A DNA stretch of 64,000 nt from Sacculina carcini. Its lineage: Eukaryota; Arthropoda; Thecostraca; Sacculinidae. The stretch's first letter is position 1. Each line of letters begins with the position of its first letter. The notes beneath the pieces are model-generated. The model was not told the DNA's origin and made no database searches. It saw only the letters and a program-made list of their open reading frames with translations. The DNA lies in NCBI GenBank assembly GCA_916048095.2, contig OU696576.1, positions 4,068,548-4,132,547 of the forward strand, in the 5' to 3' direction. Positions 9,463 to 48,363 of this stretch are shown here, in pieces. A program made the position numbers and the translations under genes.

Positions 9463-12400
9463 TCGTATGTATATATATCTATATATATATATAAAAGAGA
9501 ACCTCTGTGTGTGTGTGTGTGTCTGTCTGTCTGTCTGTCTGTCTGTCCCACCCTCCTTGGTCCATTTTCTGCAAGCTGCTACTCGGTAACCACTTGGTGT
9601 ACCCGCTAACAATATATACCGTCACGTTGGAAATTTTCTTGTCTACACGATATGTTAAAATAAAAATATTATAAATAAAACTAAAAAATGTAATAGCGGT
9701 GAAAAGACAAAATGAACCCTGAAAAATGCGAAAATTGTGGTCAATATTCTACCATCTACACCTCATAAACCAGCGATGGTACAGCTATACAGATTTTACC
9801 GCTGCGTAGAGAATTTTCTGTTCTACAAGGTAAACTATACTTCATATTCCAAAAATTGAATGTAAAATATGTTAAAATGATAAAATTTCAATCTACATTC
9901 AAAACTTTATTTAAACTCCACGCGTCCGATTTTCTTTACTTTTTCCTCTATTTCTCAGCAACTAAATATAACACATCTAAATAAATAATACCATCATTCT
10001 GAGAATTTCGTTTTCTACAACACGGTATAATTTTTAATTTTCCCAAATGTATTAAAAAAAGTTATGGCGGTGTGAAGTCAAAATGTACGTTCTATGTAAT
10101 GTACGTTGTATGTGTGTTCTACAAGAAAAGCTATAATTTACACCCACAAATGATACAAAAAACGTGTAATTTGGCAAAATTCTCAAATACATCCAAAATT
10201 ACACTTGAACACCGGGCGACTAAAATTAATTCATTTTTCTACTATTTCTCAGTAACTATTTGTCATACATAAAAATAAATTATACCATCTTGTTAAACAT
10301 CTTGTTTTCTACAATACGGTATATTTTGTAATTTTCCAAAGTGTATCTGAAGGACGTTACGGCGGTGTAAAGTCAAAAGGACATATTGCCAATTTGACAG
10401 CTATTATGCGCACTTGCGATTACGCAGGAATATACTACTGCGTAGATAATTTTGTGTTCTACAAGATAAGCTATTATTTATAATTTGTAATTTTCCAAAG
10501 TGTATCTGAAGGAAGTTACGGCGGTGTAAAGTCAAAAGCACATATTACCAATTTGACAGCTATTATGAGCACTTGCGATTACACAGGAATATACACCGAT
10601 TAAATTTCACTGAAGCCCAATCACAATTAAGAATGCATCATATTAGCTCCAAGCATGGATGGTGTGGTTTTATTGGATACAGTTCAATTAATGCTACACT
10701 ATACTGAATAGAAAGGCTTTATTGTCCTCAATATATACACATGAATTGTTCCGCCCGACGGGCGGGTAAAATACTACTGGGAACAAATTTAACTACTGAA
10801 TTTTACTGTGTAATTTAATTAGTTTTATTTCAAGCTGCATACGTTCAAGTTGCATAAGGATATGGGTTGTAATATCATGCAATGCCAACTATATGAATAT
10901 GCTGTTTTAGCGGACGCATAAATCTGGAATTATAGAGATGACAGAAGGTTTCATTGTTTTGATAGTGTTACACTTCTGAATTACTACACACGAAGGATGG
11001 GTGTGAACTTGAGCAGTGTTGAGGAAAAAAACTTCGTCAATAATTAAAACAAAAATTTACAAATTTATATTTTTATATTGGATATGCTTTTTGCTTTTTG
11101 ATTCTTTATATTCTATTTATAGTTCCGCACGACGGGCGGGTTTAAATACGAGGCAGTTCGAGAGAAAATATTTTGCCACATCTAAAATAAAAACATTCAC
11201 ATTTAGATTTTTCTATTGGTTAAGACTTTTTATGGGTTTACTTTTTCTTTTTTAATTTCTAATCATTTTTTATTAATTCAATATTCATTTTACTTTATTT
11301 ATTGTTCTGCACAAAGGGCGGGTTTTAATGCTAGATGGTGATGTTGAGATATAAATATATTTTGAAAACATTATGATAAAAAAAATTAGTAATTTTTCAT
11401 TGTTTTGTGTCAGAGTTCTGAATTATTCACCACGACGGGCAGGTTTAAATAGAATTTTTTTGGGTTTACTCTTTCTTTATTAATTAATAATTTGTTTTCT
11501 CTTATGAATTGAATACAAATTTAATAGTATGAACTGTTTCGCACGACGGGCGGGTTTACATGATAGAATTTTCATTGTTTTGTACGTGTTAGTGTTCTGA
11601 AATATTCCGCTCGACGGGTAGGTTTAAATATGAGGTGGATTAAGGGATAATATTTTGTCAAATTTATCATTAAAAAATATTCAGATTTAGAGTTTTTATT
11701 GGTGAACGTATTTACAGGTTAAATTTTTTGCTTTTTAATTTTTATACAGTTTATTCTATGGATTGAATATGCTTTTTATTTTTTGAATTGTTGAGCACGA
11801 CGGGCGGGTTTCAATATGAGGCAGATTAAATGAAAATATGTTGTCAAAATAAAAATAAAATATAATGAGTTATGCTAGATGAGAACATAAAATAAATAAT
11901 ATATAATTAAATCGAATTATACAGTAAATGTGAATTAATCTGGCTTTTAGGCGGTTCAGGCAAACAGTTATGTCAAAATAATATAAAAATATAGAAATTT
12001 AGATTTTTTATGGGTGTACTCTTTTCATCATATTCCTTTTCTCTTATGAATTGAATACAAATTTAATAGTATGAACTGTTTCGCACGACGGGCGGGTTTA
12101 CATGCTAGAATTTTCATTGTTTGTTACGTGATTGTGTTCTGAATTATTCCGCACAATGGGTGGGTTTAAATATGAGACGGGTTGATGGAAAATATTTTGT
12201 CAATATTGAAAAAAATATTAATTTAGACTAAAATTGATAAAAAAAATGTACCAGGTTACCTTTTTTCTTTTTCAATTTGCCATATTTTTTATAAATTAAA
12301 TGCGAATTTCATTTTATGAATTGGTCCGCACGACGTGCCGGTTTATATGCTAGAGTTTCCATTGTTTGTTATGTGTTTGTGTTCTGAATTATTCCGCACG

Positions 12401-12592
12401 ACGGGCAGGTTCAAATATAAGGCGGATTGAGGATAATATGTTTTCAAATTTAAAATTAAAACATTCAGATTTAGAGTTTTATATTGGTGAACGTATTTGC
12501 AGGTTAAAGTTTTTTGCTTTTTATTTGTATTCAGTTTATTTATGGATTGAATATGAATTTTACTTTATAAATTGTTCCGCACGACGGGAGGG

Positions 12593-12596
<4 letters not shown>
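9463..12596 (+). mobile_element. Helentron-like hairpin-array element, copy A
   Basis: Begins with a TATATATAAAAGAGAACC segment, a (TG)n/(TCTG)n run, CCCACCCTCCTTGGTCCATT and an A+T-rich body, as do the copies at 44612 and 47599. From 10750 onward it carries about 12 hairpins of the form CCGCACG-A-CGGGCGG, often within TTCCGCACGACGGGCGGGTT, spaced 70-280 bp. Several are followed after 6-10 bases by CTAG, resembling a Helitron 3' end (hairpin then CTRR). No Rep/helicase is encoded, so it would be non-autonomous. The family name is inferred from the terminal structure only. It runs into a (TA)n tract at 12597. Confidence 0.55.
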
Positions 12597-12640
<44 letters not shown>

Positions 12641-12645
<5 letters not shown>

Positions 12646-13195
12646 GATTTGTTGAAATCAACAGCAATCTGGGCACTGTTGTGCTGGTACGATAGCTTCT
12701 CTATGCTGCGCACGATTTTTCTGTGTTCAGGAGACAACACACTCAGTTGTTCACTGAAGTTTATTCCTCGAGGTACCTTTCGGCTATCACTAGCCATCGT
12801 CAGGAGAAGTAGATATAACACAATACAAAACAAAATACACAATACCAAACAGTCCACGATAAACGGTGTTTATATACAAGGTGAGACAATATATCACTCA
12901 TGTGCCAATGTGGCACCTACATAATGACACCTATGCGGCAAACGGTCGTTACAAAATTAGCACCTATGTGCCAAGGTCGATTGGTGTCGCATGGATGGGA
13001 GGGCGACATCTGGCTGTTGCTGAATGTTAATTTCACATTTATTTTTATTAATAAATACAGCTTCAATTATTTTGAGCCTACGGATATCATTTTCTCTGTA
13101 AATGATTTCGGTTTTTCTCATCCATAGTCTTTCGGTCCACTTTGATTTGATGCTGCTGGCGGTAGTGCCTGGCAATGGCTCCGTCTTGAAGATGT
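12641..13195 (-). repeat. PLE inverted arm, left
   Basis: Reverse complement of 14766-15323. On the minus strand it contains the end of the RT protein (12957-13175) and the N-terminal ORF starting at the ATG in 12797-12799, followed by a (TA)n tract at 12597-12640. The near-identity of the arms suggests recent origin or gene conversion. Confidence 0.9.
12778..12803 (-). ncRNA. hammerhead-ribozyme-like core, left arm
   Basis: Minus-strand copy of the motif at 15158-15183: CTGACGA, a 5-bp stem GGCTA/TAGCC with a GTGA loop, then GAAA. Hammerhead motifs are known in PLE pLTRs. One extra base sits between CTGACGA and stem II, and stems I and III were not verified. Confidence 0.4.
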
Positions 13196-13198
13196 CTT

Positions 13199-15004
13199 GA
13201 AGATGTTATTCGCGAGTCAAAAATCTCTCGCGGGCATACAAGAACGTTATTGATCTCACCAGAGCTCAGAGCTGCGGCGTTGGAGCTAAGGAATAATAGC
13301 AGCATTATTATTCGAAAAACCGACAAATCATCCATGTTCGTCATACTAGACCGGTGTGATTATGACAACAAAATGGCGCAGATACTCAGTGATGCATCCA
13401 AGTTTCGCCGAATAACCCGAAATCCAACGGATGCAATGAAAATTAAGCTAAATAAAATTATCCGCAGTTGCAATACCACGAGTGAAAACAAATTGTCCAT
13501 CATTGAAGGCGATCATAGACTGGGCTATGCGTACGGCAACATAAAAACGCATAAAGATGGTTATCCTATTCGCCCAATTATAAGCCAGACACCGTCGGTC
13601 ACATACAAACTGGCAAAAGAGCTCAACGCCTTGATTTCACCATACTTGCCCGACGATTTTTGCATAAAGTCATCAGAAGAATTTTTGAAAATTCTAAAAG
13701 CGACTCAGCCCAACGGGAAAATGCACACGATGGATGTTGAATCTCTTTTCACGAATGTTCCTGTTGACGAGACCATAGATATCATTTGTCACCATCTCTA
13801 CCGCAGCTCACAACAAAAATTCCAAATTCCTGAGGCGTATCTCCGAGAATTGTTGTGTGCCTGCACGAAAGAAGCACCGTTCTACGCACCAGATGGAAAG
13901 ATGTACATCCAACACGACGGTGTAGCGATGGGTTCTCCTCTCGGCGTGCTTTTCGCCAATTTCTACATGAGCCACGTTGAAACAACTACGTTCGCAACAG
14001 AACCGACTTGCAAGCCACCAATATACGCCAGGTACGTCGATGATGTATTTATATGTGCCGAGGAAGACGCCGTACTTCAGTTGGCAAATCAACTTCAGCG
14101 AAACTCATGTTTGAAGTTCACACATCAGCAGGAAGCGAATTGCAACCTGAGTTTCTTGGACGTTGCAGTAGAACGACACGAGACCTCATTTTCCACAGCC
14201 GTCTATACGAAAAATACAGACCTAGGCTTCTGTCTGAACGCCGCTAGTGAGTGCCCGCAAGCGTATAAGATGAGCGTCATAAGGTCGTTCGTGAACAGAG
14301 CGATTACGCATTGCTCAACATGGTCTGCAACGAGCACAGAGCTGAACAGAGTCCGGCAACTACTAGTAAACAACGGCTACGAACAAACGACCATTGATCG
14401 TGTAATACGCGACAAATTGTCGAAATATATCGAAGAAGAGAGAAAACACAAAGAGACAATGACCATCAAATTGTACTACAAGAACATCATGTCTTCTGCC
14501 TATCGAGATGATGAGAACGCCATCAGAAGAATCGTCGATAGAAACGTGCAGCCAACAGAAGAAGGCACCAAGTTGCAGCTTGTCATTTATTACAAGACAC
14601 GCAAAACACGCAGCTTAGTGATGAAGAACAGTTGCCTTCCCAAGACCAGCATGTTGCAAGAAGCCAATGTAGTGTACCAGCATACATGTACAACTGGTGA
14701 CTGCAGTCGCCGAAACTCGCACTACATTGGCTACACAACAACAACGCTGTCCAAACGAATTTCAGCACATCTTCAAGACGGAGCCATTGCCAGGCACTAC
14801 CGCCAGCAGCATCAAATCAAAGTGGACCGAAAGACTATGGATGAGAAAACCGAAATCATTTACAGAGAAAATGATATCCGTAGGCTCAAAATAATTGAAG
14901 CTGTATTTATTAATAAAAATAAATGTGAAATTAACATTCAGCAACAGCCAGATGTCGCCCTCCCATCCATGCGACACCAATCGACCTTGGCACATAGGTG
15001 CTAA
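13199..15004 (+). CDS. PLE reverse transcriptase with C-terminal GIY-YIG endonuclease
   Basis: Open from about 13199 to the TAA at 15002-15004, roughly 600 codons. No ATG opens the domain, so the N-terminus probably comes from the separate upstream ORF seen in the arms. With residue 1 at 13250: an RKTDKSSMFVIL block near 23, the RT motif DVESLFTNVP at 162 (first catalytic Asp), GVAMGSPLGVLFANF near 224, and YVDD at 262-265 (catalytic). A C-terminal GIY-YIG nuclease begins VVYQHTC near 475, with YIGYTTTTLSKRISAH at 492 onward, then the EAVFINKNKCEIN segment holding the conserved Glu and Asn. All catalytic motifs appear intact and there is no internal stop. It copies PLE RNA using an endonuclease-nicked target. 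Confidence 0.92.
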   Translation, partial: EDVIRESKISRGHTRTLLISPELRAAALELRNNSSIIIRKTDKSSMFVILDRCDYDNKMAQILSDASKFRRITRNPTDAMKIKLNKIIRSCNTTSENKLSIIEGDHRLGYAYGNIKTHKDGYPIRPIISQTPSVTYKLAKELNALISPYLPDDFCIKSSEEFLKILKATQPNGKMHTMDVESLFTNVPVDETIDIICHHLYRSSQQKFQIPEAYLRELLCACTKEAPFYAPDGKMYIQHDGVAMGSPLGVLFANFYMSHVETTTFATEPTCKPPIYARYVDDVFICAEEDAVLQLANQLQRNSCLKFTHQQEANCNLSFLDVAVERHETSFSTAVYTKNTDLGFCLNAASECPQAYKMSVIRSFVNRAITHCSTWSATSTELNRVRQLLVNNGYEQTTIDRVIRDKLSKYIEEERKHKETMTIKLYYKNIMSSAYRDDENAIRRIVDRNVQPTEEGTKLQLVIYYKTRKTRSLVMKNSCLPKTSMLQEANVVYQHTCTTGDCSRRNSHYIGYTTTTLSKRISAHLQDGAIARHYRQQHQIKVDRKTMDEKTEIIYRENDIRRLKIIEAVFINKNKCEINIQQQPDVALPSMRHQSTLAHRC

Positions 15005-15323
15005 TTTTGTAACGACCGTTTGCCGCATAGGTGTCATTATGTAGGTGCCACATTGGCACATGAGTGATATATTGTCTCACCTTGTATATAAACACCGTTT
15101 ATCGTGGACTGTTTGGTATTGTGTATTTTGTTTTGTATTGTGTTATATCTACTTCTCCTGACGATGGCTAGTGATAGCCGAAAGGTACCTCGAGGAATAA
15201 ACTTCAGTGAACAACTGAGTGTGTTGTCTCCTGAACACAGAAAAATCGTGCGCAGCATAGAGAAGCTATCGTACCAGCACAACAGTGCCCAGATTGCTGT
15301 TGATTTCAACAAATCGTGCATAC
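14766..15323 (+). repeat. PLE inverted arm, right
   Basis: Contains the last part of the RT gene, the 3' UTR and the start of a truncated downstream copy (N-terminal ORF). Inverted relative to 12641-13195. Beyond 15323 comes CATAATGGCCTCC, which the left arm lacks, then a (TA)n tract to about 15390. Confidence 0.9.
15158..15183 (+). ncRNA. hammerhead-ribozyme-like core, right arm
   Basis: Sequence order CTGACGA, then T, then GGCTA-GTGA-TAGCC, then GAAA fits the hammerhead catalytic core CUGANGA-stem II-GAAA, apart from one unpaired T. The following GGTACC is self-complementary and could support a short stem. The start codon of the PLE N-terminal ORF (15164-15166) lies inside it. Hammerheads at this position are established for PLEs, but I could not fold the flanks. 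Confidence 0.45.
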
Positions 15324-15342
15324 ATAATGGCCTCCTTCCAAA

Positions 15343-15343
<1 letters not shown>
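15164..15343 (+). CDS. PLE N-terminal ORF, truncated copy
   Basis: Starts at the ATG inside the hammerhead-like motif and encodes MASDSRKVPRGINFSEQ..., about 60 residues, then runs into the (TA)n tract, which the frame translates as an Ile-Tyr repeat. In a complete PLE this segment would lie upstream of the RT domain; here it is the 5' end of a following, truncated copy. The same ORF exists on the minus strand in the left arm. No named domain. Confidence 0.6.
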
Positions 15344-15395
<52 letters not shown>

Positions 15396-15406
15396 TTATG
15401 TATATA

Positions 15407-17521
15407 CTAGCATTAAACCCCGCCCGTTGTGCGGAGGAATTCATAAAATGGAATTAATATTCATAAAAATTCATATTCATAAAAAATGTTCTAAATTACA
15501 AAAGAAAATAAAAACTCATAAGTGTCTTACTCAATAGAAAAGTCCAAGTGTGAAAATTTTTAATCTTATTTTGACATAATATTTTCCCTCAACCCGCCTC
15601 ATATATAAACCCACCCATTGTGCGGAATAATTCAGAACACAAACACGTAACAAACAATAAAAATTCTAGCAGGTAAGCCCGCCCGTCGTGCGAAACAGTT
15701 CATACTATTAGATTTGTATTCAATTCATAAGAGAAAAACAATATGAATTAAAAAAGAGTGGAGTAAACCCATAAAAAGTCTAAATTTCTATATTTTGATA
15801 TATATTTTCACAAAATAGTTTGCCTAAACCGCCTCATAATTATACATGCCCGTCGTACTGAATAATTCAGAACTCAGACACGAAACAATGAAAAATGACT
15901 ACACCTTTTCATCATAATGTTTCCAAAATATATTTATAACTTAACATCACCGTCTAGCATTGAAACCCGCCAGTTGTGCGGAGCAATTCATAAAATGAAA
16001 TTCATATTTAATTCATAAACATATTGCAAATTAAAAAATAAAACAGATATACTCATTAAAATCTTACTCAATTGAAAAGTCTAAATTTAATTATTTTTAT
16101 TTTTATTTTGACAACATATCTCTCATATTGAAACCCGCCCGTCGTGTTCAACAATTCATAAAATAAAATGCATATTCAATCCATAGAATAAACTGTATAA
16201 AAATTAAAAAGCAAAAAATTTAACCTGTAAATACGTTCACCAATAAAAACTCTCAATGTGAATATTTTAATTATAAATTTGACAAAATATTATCCCTTAA
16301 TCCACCTCATATTTAAACCTACCCGTCGTGCGGAATAATTCAGTACACTAACACGTACAAAACAATGAAAATTCTAGCATGTAAAACCGCCCGTCGTGCG
16401 AAACAGTTCATACTATTAAATTTGTATTCAATTCATAAGAGAAAATAAATATGAATTAATAAAGAAAAGAGTAAACCCAAAACAAAATCCTATTTAAACC
16501 TGCCCGTCGTGCTGAATAATTCAGAACTCTGACACAAAACAATGAAAAATGACTAATTTTTTTATCATAATGTTTTCAAAATATATTTAAAAGTCAACAT
16601 CACCATCTAGCATTAAAGCCCGCCCTTTGTGCAGAACGTAATTATTTTTATTTTTATTTTGACAACATATTTTCCTTTAATATTTCATATTTTCCTTTTC
16701 CTTTCCATATTTTCCACAACATATTATAGAATAAACTGTATAAAAATTATAAAGCAAAAAATTTAACCTGTAAATACGTTCACCAATAAAAACTCTAAAT
16801 GTGAATATTTCAATTATAAATTTGACAAAATATTATCCCTTAATCCACCTCATATTTAAACCTACCCGTCGTGCGGAATAATTCAGAACACCCGTAGTTC
16901 CGCCCGTCGTGCGGAACTATAAATAAAATATAATGAATCAAAAAGCAAAAAGCTTATCCAATAGAAAAATATAAATTTGTAAATTCTTGTTTTAATTATT
17001 GACGAAGTTTTTTCCTCAACACTGCTCAAGTTCACACCCATCCTTCGTGTGTAGTAATTCAGAAGTGTAATACTATCATAACAATGAAACCTGTCATCTC
17101 TATAATTCCAGATTTATACGTCCGCTAAAACAGCATATTCATATAGTTGGCATTGCATGATATTACAACCCATATCCTTATGCAGCTTAAGCTTATGCAA
17201 CTTGAAATTAAACCAATTAAATTATACAGTAAAATTCAGTAGTTAACTTTGTTCCCAGTAGTATTTTACCCGCCCGTCGGGCGGAACAAGTCATGTGTAA
17301 ATATTGAGGACAATAAAGCCTTTCTATTCAGTATAGTGTAGCATTAATTAAACTGTACCCAATAAAATCACACCATCCATGCTTGGAGCTAATATGATGC
17401 ATTCTTAATTGTGATTGGGCTTCAGTGAAATTTAATCGGTGTATATTCCTGTGTAATCGCAAGTGCGCATAATAGCTGTCAAATTGGTAGTATGTGCTTT
17501 TGACTTTACACCGCCGTTAAA
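15407..17521 (-). mobile_element. Helentron-like hairpin-array element, inverted copy
   Basis: Minus-strand copy of the array at 45590-47598. Its 3' end CTAG lies at 15407-15410 and is followed inward by hairpins at about 15423, 15612, 15681, 15846, 15969, 16136, 16318, 16388, 16503, 16620, 16863, 16905 and 17271. The outermost is a perfect palindrome, CCGCCCGTCGGGCGG. The spacing pattern matches the copy at 45.6-47.6 kb better than the left neighbour at 10.7-12.6 kb. The 5' part is missing: homology stops at 17521, where gypsy sequence begins. Confidence 0.6.
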
Positions 17522-17524
17522 ATT

Positions 17525-19296
17525 TTGATACGGAGCAGAATTCGAAACGGAATTCTATACGGAGCAGAATTCGAAATTCGAACCGATCACCAAGCGCTCA
17601 AATCAATCTTCAAACCAACAGGTAATCCTTCAGCACGCATATTGCGGTGGATATTACGTATGCAGCAGTATGACTTCACCATTCGTCACATCAACGGGCG
17701 AGACAACCCTGCCGACGTGTTATCAAGACAGCCTGTACGTAATATCACGACAAAATCTCAGCAGAAGAAGAAATAGCTGAGGGGTTCGTCAACTACGTCG
17801 TCGCACACAGCGTACCGGTGGCGCTGACTCTGTCTGAACTGGTCGAAGAGTCACAGAAGGATAGCACATTACAGGCAGTGGAGAGAGCCATACAACACGG
17901 TAATTGGGAAGACGAACGAATTCAAGCATTCAAACAAATTCGCGATGAAATCACAGCTAAAAGGGGACTGGTCATTCGCGGATCCAAGATCGTCATCCCA
18001 TCATCGCTTCGCAGGCGCACACTTCAACTTGCCCACGAAGCTCATATGGGAATAGTGAAAACCAAGGCACTATTGCGGACAAAAGTATGGTGGCCTAAGC
18101 TGGACCAAGATGTGGAAAAATTGGTAAGTGCGTACATACCGTGTGCAAGCTTGGATCAGCGAAAACGTACGAACCCATTGAATACGTCGATGATGAGCGG
18201 GGCGTGGGAGGTTATCCACGTAGATATTTGCGGGCCATTTCCCAGTGGAGAATATGTAGTTGGCATCGTAGACGCGGGTTCCAGGTGGCCTGAGGCATCA
18301 GTCGTGAGAGCCACCGACACTCACACGGTTACGGCGATGATTGAAAACTGCATCTACACTCACGGAGTGCCAGAGGTGATTGTATAAGACAACGGACCAC
18401 AGTTCCGGGGCAAGGAGTTCGCGCTATTTTGCAAAGAATGGGGTATACGGCACAGAAAGGTTTCACCGTATCATCCACAGAGTAATGGCGAAGTGGAAAG
18501 GTTTTTCTCTTCGTTACTCAAAAACGTTCGTGCATCCAACACAGAGACGAGAAACTGGAAACGATTGTTGGGAATGTTTCTTTTGCAGTACCGAAATACG
18601 CCACATTGCACCACGGGAGAAACACCCGCACAACTACTGATGGGTGGAAGTTTGAAAATGAAATGGCCTCAAATCCAATCGAACACGGAAGGGTGGAGGT
18701 GGAGAAAAGCGCGTAAGACAGACCGGGAGGAAAAAGATAAACTGAAGGCGCGCACAGACAGGAAGAATAGAACCAGGTCGAGCGATATCGCGAAAAACGA
18801 CAGAGTCCTGCTTCGCCAGACAAGGACGAACAAACTCTCGCCCCGATATGACCCACAACCATGGACGGTCACTGAAAGAAAGGGAAGTACCGTCATAATT
18901 CAAAGAGGAAATCAGCAGAAACTGCGTGAAACATCACAACTGAAAAAAGTTCCAGACAGCCGGTGGGAGGAAGGCGGCACGTTTACAAGCGACGGGCTCG
19001 GTCCAATTCTCGGTACACAAGAAGATCGAACCGGAACGACGGACGAGGCAACACACAGACACATGGAAAGTTCAAGAGGCGTCAACGGGTTCGAGCAGCA
19101 AAAACAAACAAGGCGGAACAGATCAGATCGCGACGGAGGCAACATAACGGATATTGGTAATGAGGCGGTGACATTATCGGACTCGTCAGAAGCGATTGGT
19201 TTCCCCAACAGACGACGGAGAACCATAAGAAGGCCACAGATATTCTGCGATGGCGCTACTGAGGCAGATATTGAAGACGCTTTGCTATCATCCTGA
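17525..19296 (+). pseudogene. gypsy RNase H end and integrase
   Basis: 17525-17775 encodes the end of RNase H (TDHQALKSIF, then HINGRDNPADVLSRQ). After a frame break near 17776, 17818-18387 gives the integrase N-terminus. Its zinc site HEAHMG is present, but the expected CxxC reads IPCASLDQ, so the second Cys is lost. The first catalytic Asp follows in VIHVDICGPF. A TAA at 18385-18387 falls just before DNGPQF, which holds the second Asp; the frame resumes with NGEVERFF carrying the Glu. The frame 18493-19296 includes the YRNTPHCTTGETPAQLL block and a basic C-terminal tail. A stop codon inside the catalytic core makes it inactive. Confidence 0.8.
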
Positions 19297-19317
19297 ATTC
19301 CACCGACAGAAGCAAAA

Positions 19318-19332
19318 TGAAGAGGGAGGAGA
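19318..19332 (+). other. polypurine tract of the gypsy element
   Basis: Purine run AAGAGGGAGGAGA immediately upstream of the LTR, the expected plus-strand primer. Confidence 0.6.
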
Positions 19333-19337
19333 TATAC

Positions 19338-19611
19338 TGTTTCTACACTTGTGGCGCAAGTGTCGTTTATGACTGTGGGGCTGGTTGATGTTGTTTATAT
19401 GTATTAATGATAAGTTTCCAAATAAGTTATACGGTAGGATTTAATTATATTGAGTGTTTGTATTTGCTAATCAACCTTGCTAATGTACATTACTAACCAC
19501 TATCATTTGGGTTATGTTTCAGGCATTGAATGTTGGTGTCTTATTGATATGAAATAGAGTAGCACGTTTCACGGTTGTTTTCATTGTAGTGGCGATGACG
19601 GAAAAGGAACA
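19338..19611 (+). repeat. gypsy 3' LTR
   Basis: About 274 bp beginning TGTTTCTACA and ending GGAACA, with short inverted TGTT/AACA ends, directly downstream of the polypurine tract. The partner LTR is absent. Confidence 0.65.
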
Positions 19612-20400
19612 GTAAACTACACACGAAGGACGGGTGCGAATTTGAGCAGTGTTGAGGGAAAATATTTCGTCAATATTTAATACAAAAATTTACAAATCTA
19701 GATTTTTATATTGGATAAGCTTTTTGCTTTTTGATTCAATATATTTTATTTATCGTTCCGCACGACGGGCGGGTTTAAATACGAGGCTGTCCGAAGGAAA
19801 ATATTTTGCAACATCTAAAATAAAAATGTTCATATTTAGAAATTTCTATTGATTAACACTGGGTTTACTTTTCCTTTTTAAATTTCTAATCGTTTTTTTA
19901 ATTCAATATTTATTTTACTTTATTAATGCTATATAGTGATGTTAAGTTATAAATATATTTTGAAAACATTATGATAAAATATTTAGTCATTTTTCATTGT
20001 TTTGTGTCTATTTTGTCAAAATAATATAAAAATGTAGAAATTTAGGCTTTTTATGGGCTTACTCTTTTCTTTGTTAATTCATATATATTTTATCTTATGA
20101 ATTGAATACAAATTTAATAGTATGAATTGTTCCGCACGACGGGCGGGTTTACATGCTAGAATTTGCATTGTTTGTTACGTGTTTGTGTTCAGAATTATTC
20201 CGCACGACGGGCAGGTTCAACTATGAGGCGGATTGAGGGATAATATTTTGTCAAATTTAAAATCAAAATATTCACATTTAGAGTTTTTATTGGTGAACGT
20301 ATATACAGGTTAAATTTTTTGCTTTTTAATTTTTATCCAGTTTATTTTATGGATTGAATATGATTTTGACTTTGTGAATTGTTCAGCAGGACGGGCGGGT
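19612..20400 (+). mobile_element. Helentron-like array fragment E
   Basis: Plus-orientation copy of array sequence with hairpins near 19758, 20131, 20198 and 20390, matching 46030-46400 and then 47870-48260. An internal deletion relative to the 44.6 kb copy is evident near 19860-20000. Confidence 0.6.
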
Positions 20401-20790
20401 TCAAATATTATTTTTCTTTTATGTATATATAAATGAAATTATCTGTCTGTCTGTGTATGTATGCTTGAATATGAGGTGAGATAATTGCGCGGGTTCAATG
20501 GTATAGATCAGGGGTTTCAAACGCAAACGAAGCGATGGTTCATTTTTATTCAATAAAAATGTCCCGCGGGCAGCAACTATAGACAATAAAACGTTCAATT
20601 TCACCGTATAGAATGAATTCATATACAAAACTAATGGATTTGACTTCAAGATCCAGAACGGATCGAGTTCGAGTTCTGAATTTTCAAGCACGTCGGGCGG
20701 GTTTTAATATGAGGCGGGCTGAGTGAAAATATTTTGTCAAAATAAAATAAAAAATAATGAAATGTAGACTTTTCAATTGATAAAGGTTTT

Positions 20791-20800
<10 letters not shown>
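20401..20800 (+). mobile_element. second Helentron-like unit (type D)
   Basis: Begins TATATATAAATGAAATTATC, then a (CTGT)n run and GTATGTATGCTTGAATATGAGG. It shares its whole length with 48361-48760, including the TTTCAAACGCAAACGAAGCG segment and the hairpin near 20692. It follows unit E exactly as the corresponding unit follows the array at 48.26 kb, so E plus D is a repeated composite. Confidence 0.6.
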
Positions 20801-20822
<22 letters not shown>

Positions 20823-20823
<1 letters not shown>

Positions 20824-20965
20824 CTAGCATTAAAAACCGCCCGTTGTGCGGTACAATTCATAAAAATACTTCAAATTGCTAAATAAATAAGGTAAACTCA
20901 TAAAAACCTTAATCAATTAATTCAATTAAATCAATTAAAACCTTAATCAAACCTTAGCCATGATA
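20823..20965 (-). mobile_element. inverted Helentron-like 3' end
   Basis: After a (TA)n tract, ACTAGCATTAAAAACCGCCC reads as the reverse complement of the array 3' terminus (hairpin then CTAG). Its interior (AACCTTAATCAATTAA) is the inverse of 20760-20780, so this is a fold-back of the 3' end. Confidence 0.6.
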
Positions 20966-23996: not shown

Positions 23997-24101
23997 CCTA
24001 TATGGCTATATAAGGACATACCCCATCTACCCATCCCCTTTAACTACACTCTTGTTAGAATGTATACATTCCTTGCATTTGTTATGCACCTTTTTTCTAC
24101 T

Positions 24102-24683
24102 TCATTTCGCATCATAGAAATTCTGAACAATGTGCACCTCAGTCTGATTCATCACTTGCGCTTGCTGACGACTTGACTCAAACGTCGTAGCAATCATTTG
24201 CAATTTTTGAATTGTCAACTCAGATTGTTCCAAAAACTTACGCCTTAATTCCGGGTGCAAACAACCAGCTACAGCCTGATTTACCAAATGTGAATCAATT
24301 TCAGATGCTAAGAAATCACACGTTTTCACTTATGATCTCAACTGAGCAACAAACTGAACCATACTGTCATCCTCTTTCTCTTTCAACTGATGAAACACAT
24401 AACGCTCGTAGACACTATTTCTTTTTGGCTCGTAGTGGCCCTTCAACTTGGCTACAGCATTTGTGTACCCATCTGCATTTTCCAAAGAAACTGGCTCTGG
24501 CAAAGTTTCGAAAATTCCTTGCACTTCCAATCCCAATAAGTGAAGCAGAACAGCCTTTTTCTGAGAAGCACTACTTATTCCCACTGCTTCAAAATAATAC
24601 TCCAAACCACGAATCCACCTTCCGAAACCCGTTCCCACTTGATACGGTTCCAATTGCGACAAACTCAAATTAGCTGTAGCCAT
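24102..24683 (-). pseudogene. Ty3/gypsy gag (capsid) fragment
   Basis: Starts at an ATG at 24681-24683 on the minus strand. The product has a GRWIRGLEYYFEA block, AVLLHLLGLEVQGIFETLP (a gypsy capsid signature), AKLKGHYEPKRNSVYERYVF and MVQFVAQLRS. A single in-frame TAA at 24330-24332 is followed by CDFLASEIDSHLVNQAVAGC and a helical tail to 24102. Zinc knuckle, pol and LTRs are absent, so it is an isolated remnant. Its sequence differs from the gag at 4.4-5.4 kb, indicating another gypsy family. Confidence 0.75.
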
Positions 24684-24736
24684 AGCTACATAACAAACAA
24701 CTTATTGAAAAATCAAACCCAATATTTATTCAAAAT

Positions 24737-27197
24737 ATTGAAGTCTTCCGGTGGTGGAGTGGGCTGCATTTTCTCTACATGTTTCAGTCTTATCTTTTCC
24801 GTCTCTTTGTTCTTTCTCATCCTTTGAATTCCTTGCTCTACAACTTTCACCGCCTTCTTCTCCGAAGTTCTGTATCACCATTATTTATCGCCATAATCAT
24901 CCTGACACTTGCTCTTCTTTTTTCACTTAATTTCCTACTCTCCTCGACTGCATCATATCCTCTTTCTCTAGTCGCTTTATTATCCTAGGCGATTTCAACT
25001 TTTGGGTGGATTCGCCTAGCTCTAATGTCCTTGCTTCTCAATTTCTAACTATCTTAGACTCTCATGGTTTGTTCTCTCCTGTTTCCTCGCCTACTCATAT
25101 CTCCGGCCATTCCTTAGATCTTATCCTTTTCCCATCGCCTGTCCTTACTACCGACAATTCTCCATCCAATGTAACTGTCTTTCCTTCCAATCTTTCTTTG
25201 TCTGACCATAGTCTTCTTCTTACCACTCTTCCTTGTCTCGCCTCGCTGCCTCCTCATACTCCTGCTTTGATTGCCTATCGTAACTTTAAAGAATTCGATC
25301 CGATGCAGTTTTACCTATTACTTGATTCCTTATTACCTCTGCAAACGCTTTATTTCCTGAATCCTTCGGACATCTATCCCCACCTATCTTCTGCTTTATC
25401 TAAAATCAGTGACTTTTTGTTTCCTTTACTTATCCGGCGCAATACAACTAATTCTTCTCCTCCTTGGTTTAACTCTCAACTTCGTCTATTGAAAAGACAT
25501 CAACGTTCACTTCTACGAATCTGGAAACGTACATCTCATCCATCTGATTGGTCTTCCTTCTCTGTTTCCCGCTCTTCTTATATCTCGGCCTTGTCTGCAG
25601 CGAAACAAAATTACTTCTCCTCCGGTCTCTCTTCGCTCTCCCGATCCCCTAAATCTCTTTGGACAACTCTAAACTCTCTCACTGGTTCTCGATCTAACTC
25701 CTCTATATCTAATCTAACTGCCTCTCAATTATCTTCTCATTTCACTGATAAAGTCCTAACTGTTCAATCTAAACTCCCCTCTTCCAATATCCCTGTTACA
25801 CATACTCGTGTGTCTCTACAATTCACTTCATTCTCGCAAATACATTTTTCAGATATTCTTACCATGATATCTTCCCTCAAAATTTCCTCCTCTCCGGCTG
25901 ATCCTATTAATTTTAGAGCTATCTCTCCTTCAATATTTTCTCTTGTTCCTTATCTATTACATCTCATTAATTCATCATTTCTTCATGGCCAATTCCTATC
26001 TGATAAACATGCCATCGTCCATCCTATCCTTAAAAAACCTACATTAAATCCGTCTGAATGCGCTAATTACCGTCCTATATCTCTTATCAGCTTTCCTTCA
26101 AAACCCCTTGAATCAGCTATTTTTCCCAGTTGTCTCCCCTTATTTCCCAGGTCCTTTATCCTTTCCAATCTGGCTTTCGCTCCTGTCACTCTACGGAATC
26201 CGTCCTTATTTCAGTTACTCATGAAATCTTATCTCAATTTTCCTATCGTCAATCAGTTCTCCTTGTTCTTCTCGATATGTCTCTAGCCTTCGATCTTGTC
26301 AATCATGCCATTCTTATCAATGATCTTTCTTCTCTGGGTCTATCCTCGTCAGCATTGTCTCTCCTCATATCCTATCTATCTGGTCGCAGTTTTTCAGTAA
26401 ACTTCAATTCAACTGTTTCAAAACCTGCTTCTCTTATTTCTGGTGTCCCTCAAGGTTCTATCTTGGGTCCTACTGTTTTCAATCTTTACATGTCTTCTCT
26501 CTGTCCTCTCCTTTGTAAATACAACATTCCTTTCCATATTTATGCCGATGATATACAACTCCTAATTCCTTGTCCTTCCTCTCATGCCACTCTTCTCAAT
26601 GATATTATCTCTGGTATTACGTCCTGGACCACTTCTCGACGCCTCATTCTCAACACTTCTAAGTCTGAATTTCTTATCCTTCACCCTCCGCGCATTTCTC
26701 CTCCATTACTCCCAATCGCTGTATCTTCCTCTGTTCGAAACTTGGTGCTATCTTCGATTCCAACTTGTCCTTTTCAAACAATGTTGTCTCTATTTCGCGC
26801 ACCTTTCGTTTGATTTTACGCAGTCTATACCCTATTCGATCCTGTTTAGACCAGCCTTCTTCTATTAAATTAATACAGTCTCTTGTTCTTTCTCGTCTTG
26901 ATTATTGCAACTCACTCCACTACATTCTTACCAACAAATCCCTGAAAATCCTTCAAAAAATAATTAATCAATCATGTCGTTTTGTGCTCCATCCTACACC
27001 TTGCCGCCATACCTCTCAATTCTTTTTCCAATTCCACTGGCTTCCCATCATTCCTAGGATTCATTTTCGGCTATGTTGTCTCATATATAAAATTCTGCAC
27101 AATAGCTCTTCCCCGTCCTATCTTTTTGATCTTCTAGTTTCTTATAATGACTTTAATTCTCGTGTTCATCGTCCTTTATCCTGTCCTCGCGCTATCA
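24737..27197 (+). mobile_element. L2-like LINE (ii), main part
   Basis: 5'-truncated LINE beginning inside the endonuclease (SSGGGVGCIF near 24740) and interrupted at 27197 by another LINE. Its 3' end resumes at 31515-32116. Same family as the LINEs at 27.2 kb and 37.8 kb, by protein alignment and the 3' motif. Confidence 0.8.
24985..27197 (+). pseudogene. LINE (ii) ORF2: endonuclease end and RT
   Basis: Frame 1 (to 26286) holds the AP-endonuclease end: LGDFNFWVDSP starts at 24985, then THISGHSLDLIL and SDHSLLL, followed by the linker (PPWFNSQLRLLKRHQRSL) and the RT start (NYRPISLISFPSKPLESAI). A frame change near 26150-26280 moves to frame 3 with DMSLAFDLVNHAIL (first catalytic Asp), SGVPQGSILGPTVFNLYMSS and YADDIQLL (catalytic YADD). 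A second change near 26780 leads to the C-terminal domain (SRLDYCNSLHY, FHWLPIIPRI). At least two frameshifts; inactive. Confidence 0.8.
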
Positions 27198-27255
27198 TGC
27201 CATTCTTTGTCTGAACTGCCGATCAGAGTACTTTGATCGTAAGCGCAACTCAACA

Positions 27256-28182
27256 ATGGAAGAATCGCTGTCGGAAATCCTGGATAATCGTCTGAACAAG
27301 TTTGAGGAAAAGTTTTCTTCTGCGCTCAAGTTGCCGCTTCTACCATCTCCTAATAATCAACACGTGATCTCTTCATCGGCCGCTCGTGTCAAGCCTTCAT
27401 ACCCTGTTGTTGTGAAGTCAAGATCAAACTGTTCTGTCTCTTCTGAGCACATCAAATCTGCACTCAGAACAGAGCCCCTGCAAAACTCCATCGCATTAAA
27501 AAACAAATTGGTTCTGAAGTGTAGCTCAACAACTCAAGTCAAGCGTGTTGCTGAGTCTGTTCGGGTCAACATCCCGGATGTCAAGGTTATTGTTCTTACA
27601 CCAACAATTCAGCCAAAGGTGACAGTTACCAACATACCAGACGATTCGACTCCTGAGAGTCTTCTCAGTACCCTCCGGTTGAAGAACCCTTCCCTGTCTT
27701 CTGCTTCAACATCTGAACTCAAGGTGCTCTTCATCGCGAGATCCCGTGCTGGTGCCCGACTTGATGTACAGTCTGTCTCTCCTGCTGTACGGGAAGCAAT
27801 ACGACTCTTGGGCGATCGCCTCTTTGCTGATCTCTCCTCGTGCCCAGTCTACAACCGGTTTTGGGTCGCGCGCTGTCAACGATGCGCAGGACTCGGCCAC
27901 AAGACCAGCCGATGCTTCCCCAGCAATCCGGAATGCTGTGGGCACTGCACTGGAGCCCATCGCTCGGTGAACTGTCCCGATCATTCGGCTCGCTGTTGCG
28001 TCAGCTGCAAAAGAGCGGGTCGTCCTCACGATCACTCCTCTTTCTCCTCTGACTGTCCGTCTTTTCTGGCCGTTCGACACTCGCTGCGTACTAGGACACA
28101 ACAGTACTCTCTTCCTGACTCTTCGCCTCAAAGTGCGCCGCCTCTGACTATACTCTCTGATTCCTCGTCCAGTACTCAATGA
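27256..28182 (+). CDS. LINE (iii) ORF1, zinc-knuckle RNA-binding protein
   Basis: Complete 308-residue frame with a genuine ATG. The N-terminus is helical (MEESLSEILDNRLNKFEEKF). The middle is an RRM-like region (VTVTNIPDDSTPESLLSTL, near 118-135), and the C-terminus has zinc fingers: CQRCAGLGHKTSRC (CX2CX4HX4C), then CGHCTGAHRSVNC and CVSCKRAGRPHDH. It would bind LINE RNA in the retrotransposition particle. It is shorter than the homologue at 37.8 kb because it lacks the N-terminal PHD-like finger. It appears intact, although its ORF2 is not. Confidence 0.8.
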   Translation: MEESLSEILDNRLNKFEEKFSSALKLPLLPSPNNQHVISSSAARVKPSYPVVVKSRSNCSVSSEHIKSALRTEPLQNSIALKNKLVLKCSSTTQVKRVAESVRVNIPDVKVIVLTPTIQPKVTVTNIPDDSTPESLLSTLRLKNPSLSSASTSELKVLFIARSRAGARLDVQSVSPAVREAIRLLGDRLFADLSSCPVYNRFWVARCQRCAGLGHKTSRCFPSNPECCGHCTGAHRSVNCPDHSARCCVSCKRAGRPHDHSSFSSDCPSFLAVRHSLRTRTQQYSLPDSSPQSAPPLTILSDSSSSTQ

Positions 28183-28239
28183 CTATCTTCACCCGTCGTC
28201 TCATCTGATCCTGCTTGCGTTGTTCTAAGCTCCTCGTCT

Positions 28240-31227: not shown

Positions 31228-31514
31228 CTCCTTGCCTTCTCGTATCCGGTCATCCCCTTCACTTCGATCCTTCTCTTCTGCTCTGCATGCACATCTTGTG
31301 TCTACCTCTACCTGTTGAATGGGTTCGTGTTTTTCTTTTGTATATACGCCTGTTAAATTTTGTCTGTCATGCTCTTAGCTATTCTTTACATAGACATTTG
31401 TTTCATTTATTTTATAAACATACATACTATATTATTTTTTATCTCATCCTGTCATCGCATTGTATATTTGGCGCTATATTGAATACATGTTGTTGTTGTT
31501 GTAGTTGTTGTTGT

Positions 31515-32083
31515 ATCAACAAGTCACCTTGTACCGCAAAATCATTTTCTTTATATGCGCCTCGGGTCTACAATGATCTTCCTTCCTCAATCACTTCCTC
31601 TTCATCCTTTAGTAGATTTTCATCCTCACTTCGTAAATATATTTTTGCTATATCTTTTGATCCCACTTCTCGCACTCTTACACCTTACGCTTCCCTATGA
31701 CTCTAATTTACAATTACTTATGTTTTTACTTATTTTCATTTTATTTATCTCCATTATTATTAAAAAATTTCCTTATGGACGTCTAGTGACAAGCATGTAC
31801 ACATCAATCAGACGGACTATTACAGCTATGTGATATGGACGCTGTCGACACTCATGATTCATCTGTGTTTGGGGATCTATCGTAGAGTCTGGTTATGGGT
31901 GGGGTACACCACGAGATATGTCTTGTCTACCATTGCTGCTGTACTGACTACTCTTTGTGAGGGACTTCCATCGAGTCCTTTCTGTGAATTTTCTACTTCT
32001 TTTCTCACATCTTGATATCGTGTACTGTTGTTTCTCATTGTTGTCTCTTTCGCGCTTGTTTCTGTGTGAGCGCTATACAAATA

Positions 32084-37902: not shown

Positions 37903-39046
37903 ATGTCGACGAAACCCTCTGCTATTGTGCAGCCGTGTACCCGTGGTGACAGTGTAAACTCTGGCGCGCGCATCTATTGTGCAGGATGCCAGCGCACTTT
38001 CCACCCCTCGTGTGCCGCTCTTTCTTCAGCGGCACACACGGCCGTCAAGAAGCACAAGTTGTTTTGGCTCTGCCCGAACTGCGTGAGTGATTACGCGGCG
38101 ACCAAGCGCGACCAAAGCAAGGTGTCGATTGACAAGCTTTCTTCCACCCTGGAATGTCATCTGGCTCAGCTGAAGTCCGACCTCTTGAATGAGATGAAGC
38201 CATCCCAGAAGTCACCGTCATCTGCTCCGCATTCTGAGCTATCTGCTTCATATTCGACCGTCCCCCGTCACTCCTACGCCGTCGTCCTGAAGCCTACCAA
38301 CGCCACTGTGAAGACCGACACAGTTGAAAAGCTACTGGACGCTGTTCCGGTGGCACAGGCGCGACCAACGTCGGCAGGCGGGGTAGTCCTCACCTCCCAC
38401 ACGGAGGACGCTGCGAATCAAGCCGCCAAAAAACTTGAGGACGGCTTGGACGACGTAAGACTGAGTGTCCACCAGCGCTCTCCCTCACTTCTACCGAAGA
38501 TTACGCTGACAAATGTGCCTCCAACTTCTCCCGAGAAATTGATATCCTCTCTACGCCTGAAAAACCCCATCGTTTCGTCCGCCTCTGCCTCGCAGCTCAA
38601 AGTAATGTTCATTTACACTGCAAAAACGGGTTTGTCGCATGCAGTGCTGGCGGTTTCTCCGGAAGTTCGACGTGCAATCAAGTCTGTCGGTGATCGGCTC
38701 TTCGTTGGCCTCCGCTGTTGTGTGGTGTACGACCGCTTCTGGGTTGTGCATTGCAGTCGGTGTGCGGGCCTGGGTCACCGTGCTGATCGCTGTCCGGTAG
38801 AAAACACCGTGACTTGTGGCTACTGTGCGGGCGCACATCAATAGTCGGCCTGTCAAAACCGCGATAGGGTCAAATGTGCAAACTGTTCCCGCCATTCGCG
38901 TCCATGTGACCACTCCTCTTTCTCATCGACCTGCCCCTCTTTCCTCGCTGTACGTGAATCGCTCCGTGCGCGCACCATTGTCGCCCCTCTCTCCTCACCC
39001 TCATCCAGTAATCTTCCCCTCTGCAACCCTTCCACTGCGTTTTGAC
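37903..39046 (+). pseudogene. LINE (iv) ORF1, PHD-like finger plus zinc knuckles, one stop
   Basis: ATG at 37903 (MSTKPSAIVQPC). A PHD-like zinc finger follows at residues 11-63, with IYCAGCQRTFHPSC and FWLCPNC. Next come a helical region, an RRM-like core (PKITLTNVPPTSPEKLISSL) and CSRCAGLGHRADRC with CGYCAGAH. A TAG at about 38842-38844 interrupts the second knuckle. The same frame then continues CQNRDRVKCANCSRHSRPC to a natural TGA at 39044-39046. A PHD-type finger in ORF1 is known for some CR1-group LINEs. The single TAG may be a recent inactivating mutation. Confidence 0.8.
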
Positions 39047-39084
39047 TAACTGACCGTCCTCCGCCATTCATCCCTCCCACTGTC

Positions 39085-41970: not shown

Positions 41971-42245
41971 ATCTTGTTCTCTCTACATTCGTTTTTCTTG
42001 GTTACCAGTGTTAATCTATGATGTGATGTGTGATGTGATGTATGTTACTGTCTAAGATATTTCTTTTGCTGTTTTATACTCGTTTTTCTCTTTTTCATCA
42101 TGTGTATTATTTTTGATGGCTCATTTATTTTCCATATATGAGCTAATACTCCTTTATATTGTTCGCACCAGTTTTACTCTTTTACGCGCCTCTGCTCTAC
42201 TTGGCGCTATATCAAATACATGTTTGTTTGTTTGTTTGTTTGTTT

Positions 42246-44611: not shown

Positions 44612-47598
44612 ATCTATCTATATATATATTAAAGAGATCCTCTGTGTGTGTGTGTGTGTGTGTGTGTGTCTGTGTGTGTATCTGTCTGTCCCACCCTTCT
44701 TGGTCCATTTTCTATCAGCTGCTACTCGGTCATCACTTGGTGTACTCGCTAACAATTCATACCATCATGTTGGAAATTTTCTTGTCTACACTGTAGGCTA
44801 AATTTTTAATTTTTAAAATAAAACCAAAAACAGTTAAAGCGGTGAAAAGACAAAAAGAACCCTGAAAAATGGGAAAATTTTGGTCAATTTTCTGAAGCCT
44901 ACTCTTCCCAAACCAGCAATGGTACAACTATAAAAATTATACCACTGTGTAGAAAATTTTCAGTTCTACTCAACAAGCTATAATTCATACCCAAAAAATA
45001 ATAACCAAAAAATGAATTTAAAACATGTAAAATGGAAAAAAATTCAATCAACATTCAAAATTTTATTTATACTCCACGCGTCCGATTTTCTATACTTTTT
45101 TCTCTATTTCTCAAAACCTAATTATCACACATCTAAATAAATAATACCATCATGCTGGGAATTTTGTTCTCTACAACACGGTATAATTTTTAATTTTCCA
45201 AAGTGTATTAAAAAAGTTACGGCGGTGTGAAGTGTAAATGACAAAGTCAAAAAGGCAAAATTAGCACACAAAAACGTGAATATTTTGGTCAATATTTCGC
45301 TATCTATTCCTCATAAACCAGCAATGGTACAGCTATAAAATTATACTATTGTGTAGATAATTCTGTATTCTACAAGAAAAGTTATAATTTATACCCACAA
45401 ATGATGAAAAAAACGTGTAAAATTGGCAAAATTCTTAAATACATCCAAAATTACACTTGAGCACCGGGTGACTAAAATTAATTCATTTTTCTACTATTTC
45501 TCAGTAACTATTTGTTACACATAAAAATAAATTATACCATCGTGCTAGAAATCTTTTATACGGTTTCTACAATACGGTATAATTTGTAATTTTCCAAAGT
45601 GTATCTGAAGGAAGTTACAGCGGTGTAAAGTCAAAAGCACATATTTCCAATTTGACAGCTATTATGCGCACTTGCACTACGCACACAGGAATATACACCG
45701 ATTAAATTTCACTGAAGCCCAATCGCAATTCAGAATGCATCATATTAGCTCCAAGCATGGATGGTGTGGTTATATTGGGTACAGTTTAATTAATGCTACA
45801 CTATACTGAATAGAAAGACTTTATTGTCCTCAATATTTACACATGAATTGTTCCGCCCGACGGGCGGGTAAAATACTACTGAGAACAAAGTTAACTACTC
45901 GAGTTGCATAAGGATATGGGTTGTAATATCATGCAATGCCAACTATATGAATATGCTGTTTTAGCGGACGCATAAATCTGGAATTATAGAGATGACAGAA
46001 GGTTTCATTGTTTTGATAGTGTTACACTTCTGAATTGCTACACACGAAGGATGGGTGTGAACTTGAGCAGTGTTGAGGAAAAAACATCGTCAATAATTAA
46101 AACAAGAATTTATAAATTTATATTTTTCTATTGGACAAGATTTTTGCTTTTTGATTCATTATATTCTATTTATAGTTCCGCACGACGGGCGGGTTTAAAT
46201 ACGAGGCAGTTCGAGGGAAAATATTTTGTCACATCTAAAATAATAACATTCACATTTAGACTTTCTATTGGTTAAGACTTTTGATGGGTTTACTTTTTCT
46301 TTTTTAATTTCTAATCATTTTTTCTTAATTCAATATTCATTTTACTTTATTTATTGTTCTGCACAAAGGGCTGGGTTTAATGCTAGATGGTGATGTTCAG
46401 TTATAAATATATTTTGAAAACACTATGATAAAAAAATCAGTAATTTTTCATTGTTTTGTGTCAGAGTTCTGAATTATTCAGCACGACGGGAAGGTTTAAA
46501 TAGGATTTTTTTCTGGGTTTACTCTTTTCTTTATTAATTCATATTTATTTTCTCTTATGAATTGAATACAAATTTAATATTATGAACTGTTTCGCACGAC
46601 GGGGGGGTTTACATGCTAGAATTTTCATTGTTTCGTACGTGTTAGTGTTCTGAAATATTCCGCACGACGTGTAGGTTTAAATATGAGGTGGATTAAGGGA
46701 TAATATTTTGTCAAATTTATAATTAAAATATTCACATTTAGTTTTCATTGGTGAACGTATTTACAGGTTAAATTTTTTGCTTTTTAATTTTTATACAGTT
46801 TAGTCTATGGATTGAATATGCATTATATTTTATGAATTGTTGAGCACGACGGGCGGGTTTCAATATGACGCGGGTTAAAGGAAAATATGTTGTCAAAATA
46901 AAAATAAAAATAATTAAGTATAGACTTTTCAATTGAGTAAGATTTTAATGAGTATATCTTTTTTCTTATTTAATTTGCAATATGTTTATGAATAAAATAT
47001 GAATTTCATTTTATGAATTGCTCCGCACAACTGGCGGGTTTCAATGCTAGACGGTGATGTTAAGTTATGAAAATATTTTGGAAACATTATGATGAAAAAG
47101 TGTAGTCATTTTTCATTCTTTCGTGTCTGAGTTCTGAATTATTCAGCACGACGGGCATGTATAAATATGAGGCGGTTTAGGCAAACTATTTTGTGAAAAT
47201 AAATATGAAAATAAATAAACTTAGACTTTTTTATGGGTTTACTCCACTCTTTTTTAATTCATATTCATTTTCTCTTATGAATTGAATACAAATTTAATAG
47301 TATGAACTGTTTCGCTCGACGGGCGGGTTTACATGCTAGAATTTTCATTGTTTGTTACATGTTTGTGTTCTGAATTATTCCGCACAATGGGTGGGTTTAT
47401 ATATGAGGCGGGTTGAGGGAAAATATTATGTCAAAATAAAAATAAAAATATTCACACTTGGACTTTCCTATTGAGTAAGACACTTATGAGTTTTAATTTT
47501 CTTTTTTAATTTGGAATATTTATTATGAATATGAATTTTTATGAGTATTAATTCCATTTTATGAATTCATCCGCACAACGGGCGGGTTTTAATGCTAG
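44612..47598 (+). mobile_element. Helentron-like hairpin-array element, copy B (most complete)
   Basis: About 3 kb. The 5' end TATATATATTAAAGAGATCC is followed by (TG)n/(CTGT)n and CCCACCCTTCTTGGTCCATT, then a roughly 1.2 kb body with repeated GGCGGTGTAAAGTCAAA words. A perfect hairpin CCGCCCGACGGGCGG lies at 45854-45868, followed by about 11 hairpins at roughly 46176, 46365, 46486, 46592, 46663, 46844, 47023, 47150, 47317, 47389 and 47575. The last is followed by AATGCTAG (47591-47598), after which a new 5' end starts at once. Hairpin then CTAG is the Helitron/Helentron 3' signature. No Rep/helicase ORF. Confidence 0.6.

Positions 47599-48274: not shown

Positions 48275-48360
<86 letters not shown>
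48275..48360. repeat. (TA)n microsatellite
   Basis: Almost pure TA repeat of about 85 bp between units C and D. Confidence 0.9.

Positions 48361-48363
<3 letters not shown>

Follow-up and report, generated by a model that had tools for sequence, protein, structure and literature searches.

Canonical Helitrons are flanked by A and T and follow the pattern A|TC...hairpin...CTAG|T (PMC4778049, PMC6544945). For Helraiser, the hairpin is described as a terminator whose bypass was shown experimentally to give new 3' ends, and circles with exact CTAG-TC junctions are reported (PMC4778049, PMC5876387); among natural Helibat copies, de novo 3' ends were recorded in 39 of 395 (PMC4778049). For maize, Dong et al. 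(2011, PMC3288121) ascribe the several pseudo 3' termini inside elements, whose CTAG is damaged, to Helitrons that nested in one another and then transposed from the outermost 5' end as far as the final 3' end; multiple terminal structures are reported there for 28.7% of helAs. Here we describe a stretch of 64,000 nucleotides (hereafter the window) from the Sacculina carcini assembly GCA_916048095.2, contig OU696576.1, positions C8:4068548-4132547; the assembly comprises 264 Mb in 43 contigs, to which the genome-wide counts below refer. The window contains long arrays of short hairpins that are, on sequence evidence, the 3' halves of a large, very abundant family of non-autonomous canonical Helitrons of the A|TC...hairpin...CTAG|T type. 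The last hairpin is best read as the working terminator of transposition, and the inner hairpins are probably fossil terminators, arising through head-to-tail joining and terminator bypass and then subject to block copying and decay.

The elements resemble the Helitron1 type, Helraiser and Helibat in their 5' TC, their 3' CTAG with a hairpin a few bases upstream, their A|T flanks and their precise head-to-tail junctions; they differ in that a single element here carries 9-12 hairpins, mostly decayed and inherited as a block. Pseudo 3' termini with damaged CTAG inside elements are shared with maize Helitrons, whose worked example has two pseudo 3' termini, whereas the longest arrays here have 8-11 inner hairpins in units of 68-200 bp. 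A further difference from that example (PMC3288121) is that terminal and internal hairpins here are unlike each other at loop base 7 and at the position following CTAG. The data fit the maize nesting scheme carried much further, through joining, bypass, block amplification and decay. Self-insertion with read-through has also been proposed for the composite FoHelis of Fusarium, but there it concerns multiple 5' termini of elements with Helitron2-like ends (PMC5148889). HINE/DINE-1 elements, of Helentron type, are likewise non-autonomous and rolling-circle, with a microsatellite and an internal repeat array, but they insert into TT and have inverted repeats in subterminal position, and the sections consulted do not present the central repeats as copies of a 3' terminator (PMC4067079, PMC7492417). 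The TT insertion and non-TC/CTRR ends that mark Helentrons and HINEs were not found here, the ends being A|TC...CTAG|T. Searches of an open-licence library, together with the sections consulted of the papers cited here and of PMC4344730, yielded no report of a Helitron with an array of many internal 3' terminators. Helitrons with multiple termini are already known; the extent of the array and the contrast between terminal and internal hairpins are the new part.

Hairpins were scanned with a position-weight matrix trained on the window's own hairpins, which returned 43 rows on the forward strand and 41 on the reverse; near-palindromes were often called on both strands, leaving 48 distinct positions, and a 49th hairpin, at 16620 on the reverse strand, was seen in a separate listing of hairpins followed by CTAG. 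The same scan gave a mean hairpin count of 0 in 20 Markov-resampled windows, and Rfam at gathering threshold returned no RNA families in the window. The positions fall into groups of 12 at 10751-12577 (+), 12 at 15420-17270 (-), five at 19758-20686 (+), one at 20837 (-) and 18 at 45853-48787 (+). The array's first hairpin is a perfect palindrome, CCGCCCGACGGGCGG, at 10751..10765 (+), and is found exactly at 45853 and, on the reverse strand, at 17270. The original prediction had put the number of hairpins at about 50, with a spacing pattern conserved between copies; the count agrees, and spacings of 68 to 408 bp do recur in much the same order among the window copies. It had also listed the perfect palindromes, which exist, at positions off by one.

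A further claim, that many hairpins are followed by CTAG, holds for 16 cases in the window, with CTAG 8-11 bases behind the hairpin (the listing had 17 rows, of which 34238, outside the arrays, was dropped as a chance match), but it overlooked the next base. This is A in 13 of the 16 and T, as a Helitron 3' flank should have, in only three (47571, 20837 and 15420), so that the three CTAG|T hairpins look like true termini and the 13 CTAG|A hairpins like internal ones. Terminal and internal hairpins were then compared by Fisher test over the window plus 52 loci, after exclusion of 30 loci that had been retrieved with the hairpin pattern itself; p values are indicative only, because related copies were counted. 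An exact match to one of two consensus cores was present in 18 of 20 terminal hairpins against 5 of 27 internal CTAG hairpins (p = 1e-6), and loop base 7 was A in 20 of 20 terminal hairpins against 13 A and 14 G in the 27 internal ones (p = 6e-5). In a count made by hand on listed places, all on contig C1, the two bases preceding ATGCTAG were AC in 0 of 100 places followed by T and in 52 of 100 others. This comparison points to testable requirements of a 3' terminator, namely loop base 7 and the T after CTAG, and with thousands of ends and terminators graded from live to dead the family may serve as a natural mutagenesis set. Terminator bypass is the route by which Helitrons are thought to capture flanking DNA, and the arrays suggest that a transposon's own stop signal can also become a satellite-like array. 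The idea that the array is a stack of 3' termini thus stands in part: the ends are Helitron 3' ends and stacking with bypass fits, but most array hairpins are not termini, having no CTAG or CTAG|A and being diverged.

The arrays had also been taken as one element, in which several elements (9478-12598, 15407-17517, 19616-20820, 44617-47598 and 47599-48814) had in fact been merged. The first copy (+) has its 5' end A|TC at 9478 and its array at 10751-12591, the 3' end being lost in a (TA)n tract. The second is inverted (-), with its 3' terminus CTAG|T at 15407-15410, hairpin 15420 and a 5' truncation at 17517. The third (+), 5' truncated, carries array hairpins 19758-20686 and is joined tail to tail via (TA)n with the inverted 3' end of a further copy (20824..20965, -; hairpin 20837, CTAG|T at 20824-20827, far boundary undefined). 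Both ends are present in the fourth (+), which starts with TC at 44617 (44613 is also possible), has its array at 45853-47585 and ends with CTAG at 47595-47598 followed by T; its putative true terminator, 47571..47598 (+), consists of CCGCACAACGGGCGG, 9 bases and CTAG|T. The starts at 9478 and 44617 thus both carry TC. The fifth copy (+) adjoins the fourth head to tail as CTAG|TATATATA, without TC; it has a short 5' part and hairpins at 47829-48801, has lost its terminal CTAG, and retains an inner 5'-start remnant behind hairpin 48245, GGTTCAAA|TCTATATA. The 5' parts of the elements (9480-10600 and 44620-45830) consist of repeated modules, ~69-73% alike, with motifs such as GTTACGGCGGTG.

Across the assembly, a full element begins A|TCTATATATATAAAAGAGATCCTCTGTG, followed by ~1.2-1.9 kb of repetitive 5' sequence and 9-12 hairpins, with TTCCGCACAACGGGCGGGTTTTAATGCTAG|T at its 3' end. 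There are 2,781 occurrences of the start TATATATAAAAGAGATC; among 30 fetched start loci the context was A|TC in 22, CTAG|TC in five, G|TC in one and CTAG|TA without TC in two, which gives TC in 28 of 30. Six of the 22 A|TC loci (L045, L046, L047, L049, L051 and L052) share one flank and represent a single insertion copied by segmental duplication. At C1:1.7-2.5 Mb, what appear to be large segmental duplications repeat one and the same Helitron insertion six or seven times. The strict hairpin-CTAG end pattern TTCCGCACRACGGGCGGGTTTNNATGCTAG occurs 1,725 times, with T as the next base in 27 of 30 fetched end loci and A, the internal type, in three; the looser pattern GGGCGGGTTTNNATGCTAG is followed by T at 3,000 places and by A, C or G at 1,883. 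Pairing starts and ends among the matches listed gave elements on C1 of ~3.58 kb (L069) and 4.6 kb (L070, two in tandem); L070 has no open reading frame (ORF) from ATG, GTG or TTG longer than 135 aa. The element at C1:503332-507929 (4,598 bp) has distinct flanks with no visible target duplication. At the terminus a CCGC/GCGG stem is followed by 9 bases and CTAG, so that the distance from stem to terminus is 13, slightly above the canonical 10-12. The ends originally suggested, a TATATATAAAAGAGATCC start as the 5' end (in most cases preceded by A|TC) and hairpin-CTAG as the 3' end, are thereby supported, and copies with these ends occur throughout the assembly, where neither ends lying elsewhere nor ordinary satellite DNA emerged from the search.

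Comparison of array segments indicates how the hairpins have been inherited. Segments at the same position in different elements had mean identities of 0.956 (7 segments), 0.952 (9) and 0.904 (5), whereas segments at other positions reached 0.79-0.80 (maxima 0.91, 0.90 and 0.86) and those within one element 0.796 (14 pairs); correspondence was set by hand after best matches among segments of similar length only, which favours the same-position figure somewhat. The higher same-position identity argues that the array is old, copied as a block and not homogenised. Within the block, units alternate between 68-bp and ~180-bp segments. In the L070 subfamily the last two modules are 0.974-0.986 alike, whereas older ones reach up to 0.83, which on these identities is a recent growth or duplication of the 3'-terminal module.

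Head-to-tail structures provide the evidence for stacking. Exact CTAG|TC head-to-tail junctions number 509 genome-wide, and several lie at regular steps (e.g. 4,596 bp twice on C2), as would be expected for rolling-circle concatemers or for insertion beside a copy. A rule-based classification of 202 distinct hairpins from the window and 70 loci distinguished CTAG|T (24), CTAG followed by another base (28), GCTA|TAT start fusions (16), hairpins with a start behind them (10), Y type without CTAG (75), first-hairpin type (10) and unclassified (39). Because the class with a start behind mixed inner remnants with hairpins merely neighbouring a present-day start, it was replaced by a stricter recount. 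This gave 13 distinct hairpins whose damaged CTAG is fused to a start-like TATATATA, each with at least one hairpin downstream; in 12 of the 13 the sequence goes on as (TA)nCATAAAGAA and two hairpins follow within 600 bases, the layout expected of whole short modules. In eight other cases the hairpin has AAA|TC or AAA|TATATATA behind it; three of these (L013, L065 and window 48245) lie inside arrays, with more hairpins close downstream, and two of the three have TC. The damaged-CTAG modules and the CTAG|TC junctions fit a stacking of elements with terminator bypass. Under this reading, elements would become joined head to tail, or one would land beside another; a later transposition would run past the inner terminator to the next one, keeping the old 3' end inside; the composite would then be copied as a block, and the passed inner hairpins would decay at the neutral rate. 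The earlier idea that arrays were built repeatedly is modified accordingly in one respect: they appear to be inherited mainly as a block and not built anew in each copy, while the damaged-CTAG modules and junctions still agree with stacking.

Enzymes for such a process were sought among Rep-coding relatives. The Helitron_like_N family search gave 150 matches (the best 150 of 179 candidates scored), and two Rep-coding elements, L076 and L080, end in the same last 30 bases, TTCCGCACAACGGGCGGGTTTTAATGCTAG, as the array elements. The Rep domain is found in two L080 frames (E 4.9e-39 and 2.3e-09), a DNA search with L076 gave 58 match rows (the best 40 of 654 candidates scored), and the tail of this Rep-coding family together with the hairpin occurs 45 times. 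The exact 5' start of the L080 element occurs only once, and its 5' end therefore rests on one copy; between its Rep frames and its end no helicase coding was seen. The autonomous Rep/helicase partner that had been envisaged, with the same start and hairpin-CTAG end, is thus matched in the shared 3' end of L076 and L080 but, in the part of L080 behind its Rep frames, not in a helicase. We infer that the Rep-coding family with this 3' end may have supplied the enzyme, and that bypass by a Rep-helicase may have made the composites. Longer Rep-helicase elements, spanning at least 12.5 kb, are present at L075 (a 1,704-aa frame) and L077, the latter merely lying directly behind a CTAG end. The Rep-helicase elements L075, L077, L078 and L079, each at least 12.5 kb, carry tandem repeats of ~69 bp within their 5' coding part and, downstream of these, a minisatellite.

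Several observations weigh against the origin of the inner hairpins by joining and bypass. Only three start remnants are clearly inside arrays, the other five adjoining a present-day start or a (TA)n tract. Growth by insertion between a hairpin and its own CTAG was rejected as a route, its predicted remnant CTAG|TGCTAG occurring 0 times genome-wide and 0 times in the window and 70 loci. As a single strand, the terminal hairpin is predicted to fold only weakly (-4.1 kcal/mol, z -1.07 against shuffles); the other predicted DNA folds gave z +0.36 for an internal CTAG hairpin, -0.13 for the Y type and -2.06 for the perfect palindrome, the only one of the four folded stretches to stand out. An apparent empty site (L024/L025/L030), compared with filled sites at six 5' and seven 3' flanks, is compatible with either precise insertion or deletion; it may be a deletion between two similar 5' starts, because the first 17 bases of element and target are identical, and a TC/TA difference there fits deletion better. 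Among the Rep-coding elements read, no copy combined Rep, helicase and these ends. The long Rep-helicase elements were tentatively set aside as direct partners: in what was read of L075 and L077, where the 3' ends were not found, no hairpin of this kind follows the frames, and the sequence read near C7:4857437 likewise holds no matching hairpin downstream of the frames. Finally, all 13 internal CTAGs of the window have A as their next base, which canonical A|T insertion would not have produced; plain tandem duplication may therefore be the source of many inner units.

This last point leads to the rival that survives best, although we consider it rather unlikely as a full account: the elements would be the same Helitrons and the array an internal tandem repeat of their own 3' region, produced by replication slippage or unequal exchange, comparable to the central repeats of Helentrons, so that bypass would be unneeded. 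The CTAG|A contexts, the alternating 68-bp and ~180-bp structure within the block and the scarcity of start remnants clearly within arrays all speak for it, and the recent duplication of the L070 3' module could be a simple tandem one. It does not readily explain the 13 distinct cases in which a module with a start is fused head to tail behind a damaged-CTAG hairpin, or the 509 exact junctions, and whole-element transposition afterwards must still pass the inner hairpins. Part of the array probably goes back to plain tandem duplication. As a more speculative extension of the joining and bypass model, advanced tentatively, each new downstream 3' end followed by bypass might freeze the old terminator in the manner of a ratchet, the array becoming an ordered record of bypass with the youngest unit at its 3' side; recognition would need A at loop base 7 and T after CTAG, so that G-loop or CTAG|A copies would be read through.

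That the inner hairpins are functional, as decoys or as loading or pausing sites for helicase or Rep kept under selection, is very improbable. Their ordered spacing is kept between copies and the outer 4-bp stem is intact in 23 of 28 internal CTAG hairpins, but the same stem is kept in only 18 of 75 Y-context hairpins, and inner cores diverge at the rate of the spacers. Between copies, core and spacer differences were 6/135 vs 58/1265, 7/105 vs 38/949 and 9/75 vs 63/785 (p 1.0, 0.20 and 0.27), and between units of one copy 54/210 vs 469/1909, which speaks against selection on the inner hairpins. Ordinary satellite DNA with a chance palindrome, suggested by the tandem arrangement of related units, is scarcely credible and was rejected on account of the precise ends, the dispersal over contigs and an identity of ~79% within arrays vs 90-96% by position between copies. 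A Foldback-type element with long, subrepeat-bearing inverted repeats (10751-12590 vs 15420-17284) around a central gene has a practically negligible probability despite the long inverted repeat in the window, because what lies at its centre is an independent reverse-transcriptase element embedded in (TA)n, and because L069 and L070, located elsewhere, are direct, lack symmetry and have TC and CTAG ends.

The Helitron copies in the window are separated by this reverse-transcriptase element and by a gypsy-like integrase fragment. The predicted reverse transcriptase ORF (13250..15004, +) lies in (TA)n between the first and second copies, is not part of the Helitrons, and matched only Pfam RVT_1, at E 4e-06, just under the cut-off; we take the element to be Penelope-like. 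The surrounding region, 12643-15340, holds the element with an inverted copy of its own end opposite, in (TA)n between the two tail-to-tail Helitrons. Elsewhere in the window, at 24000-32000 and 38000-42000, ORFs of non-LTR-type reverse transcriptases coincide with GC and AT skews of ~-0.2 to -0.4, and one neighbouring ORF carries a PHD finger. A repeat of TTAGG type was counted 11,668 + 12,279 times genome-wide, against 42 + 29 for a control, an abundance that points to an arthropod, and is interspersed through C1 at many places. A repeat fragment is common to window 48840-49270 and to L080 (reverse) 1690-2070, and presumably forms part of a Tc1/mariner transposase, judged by eye.

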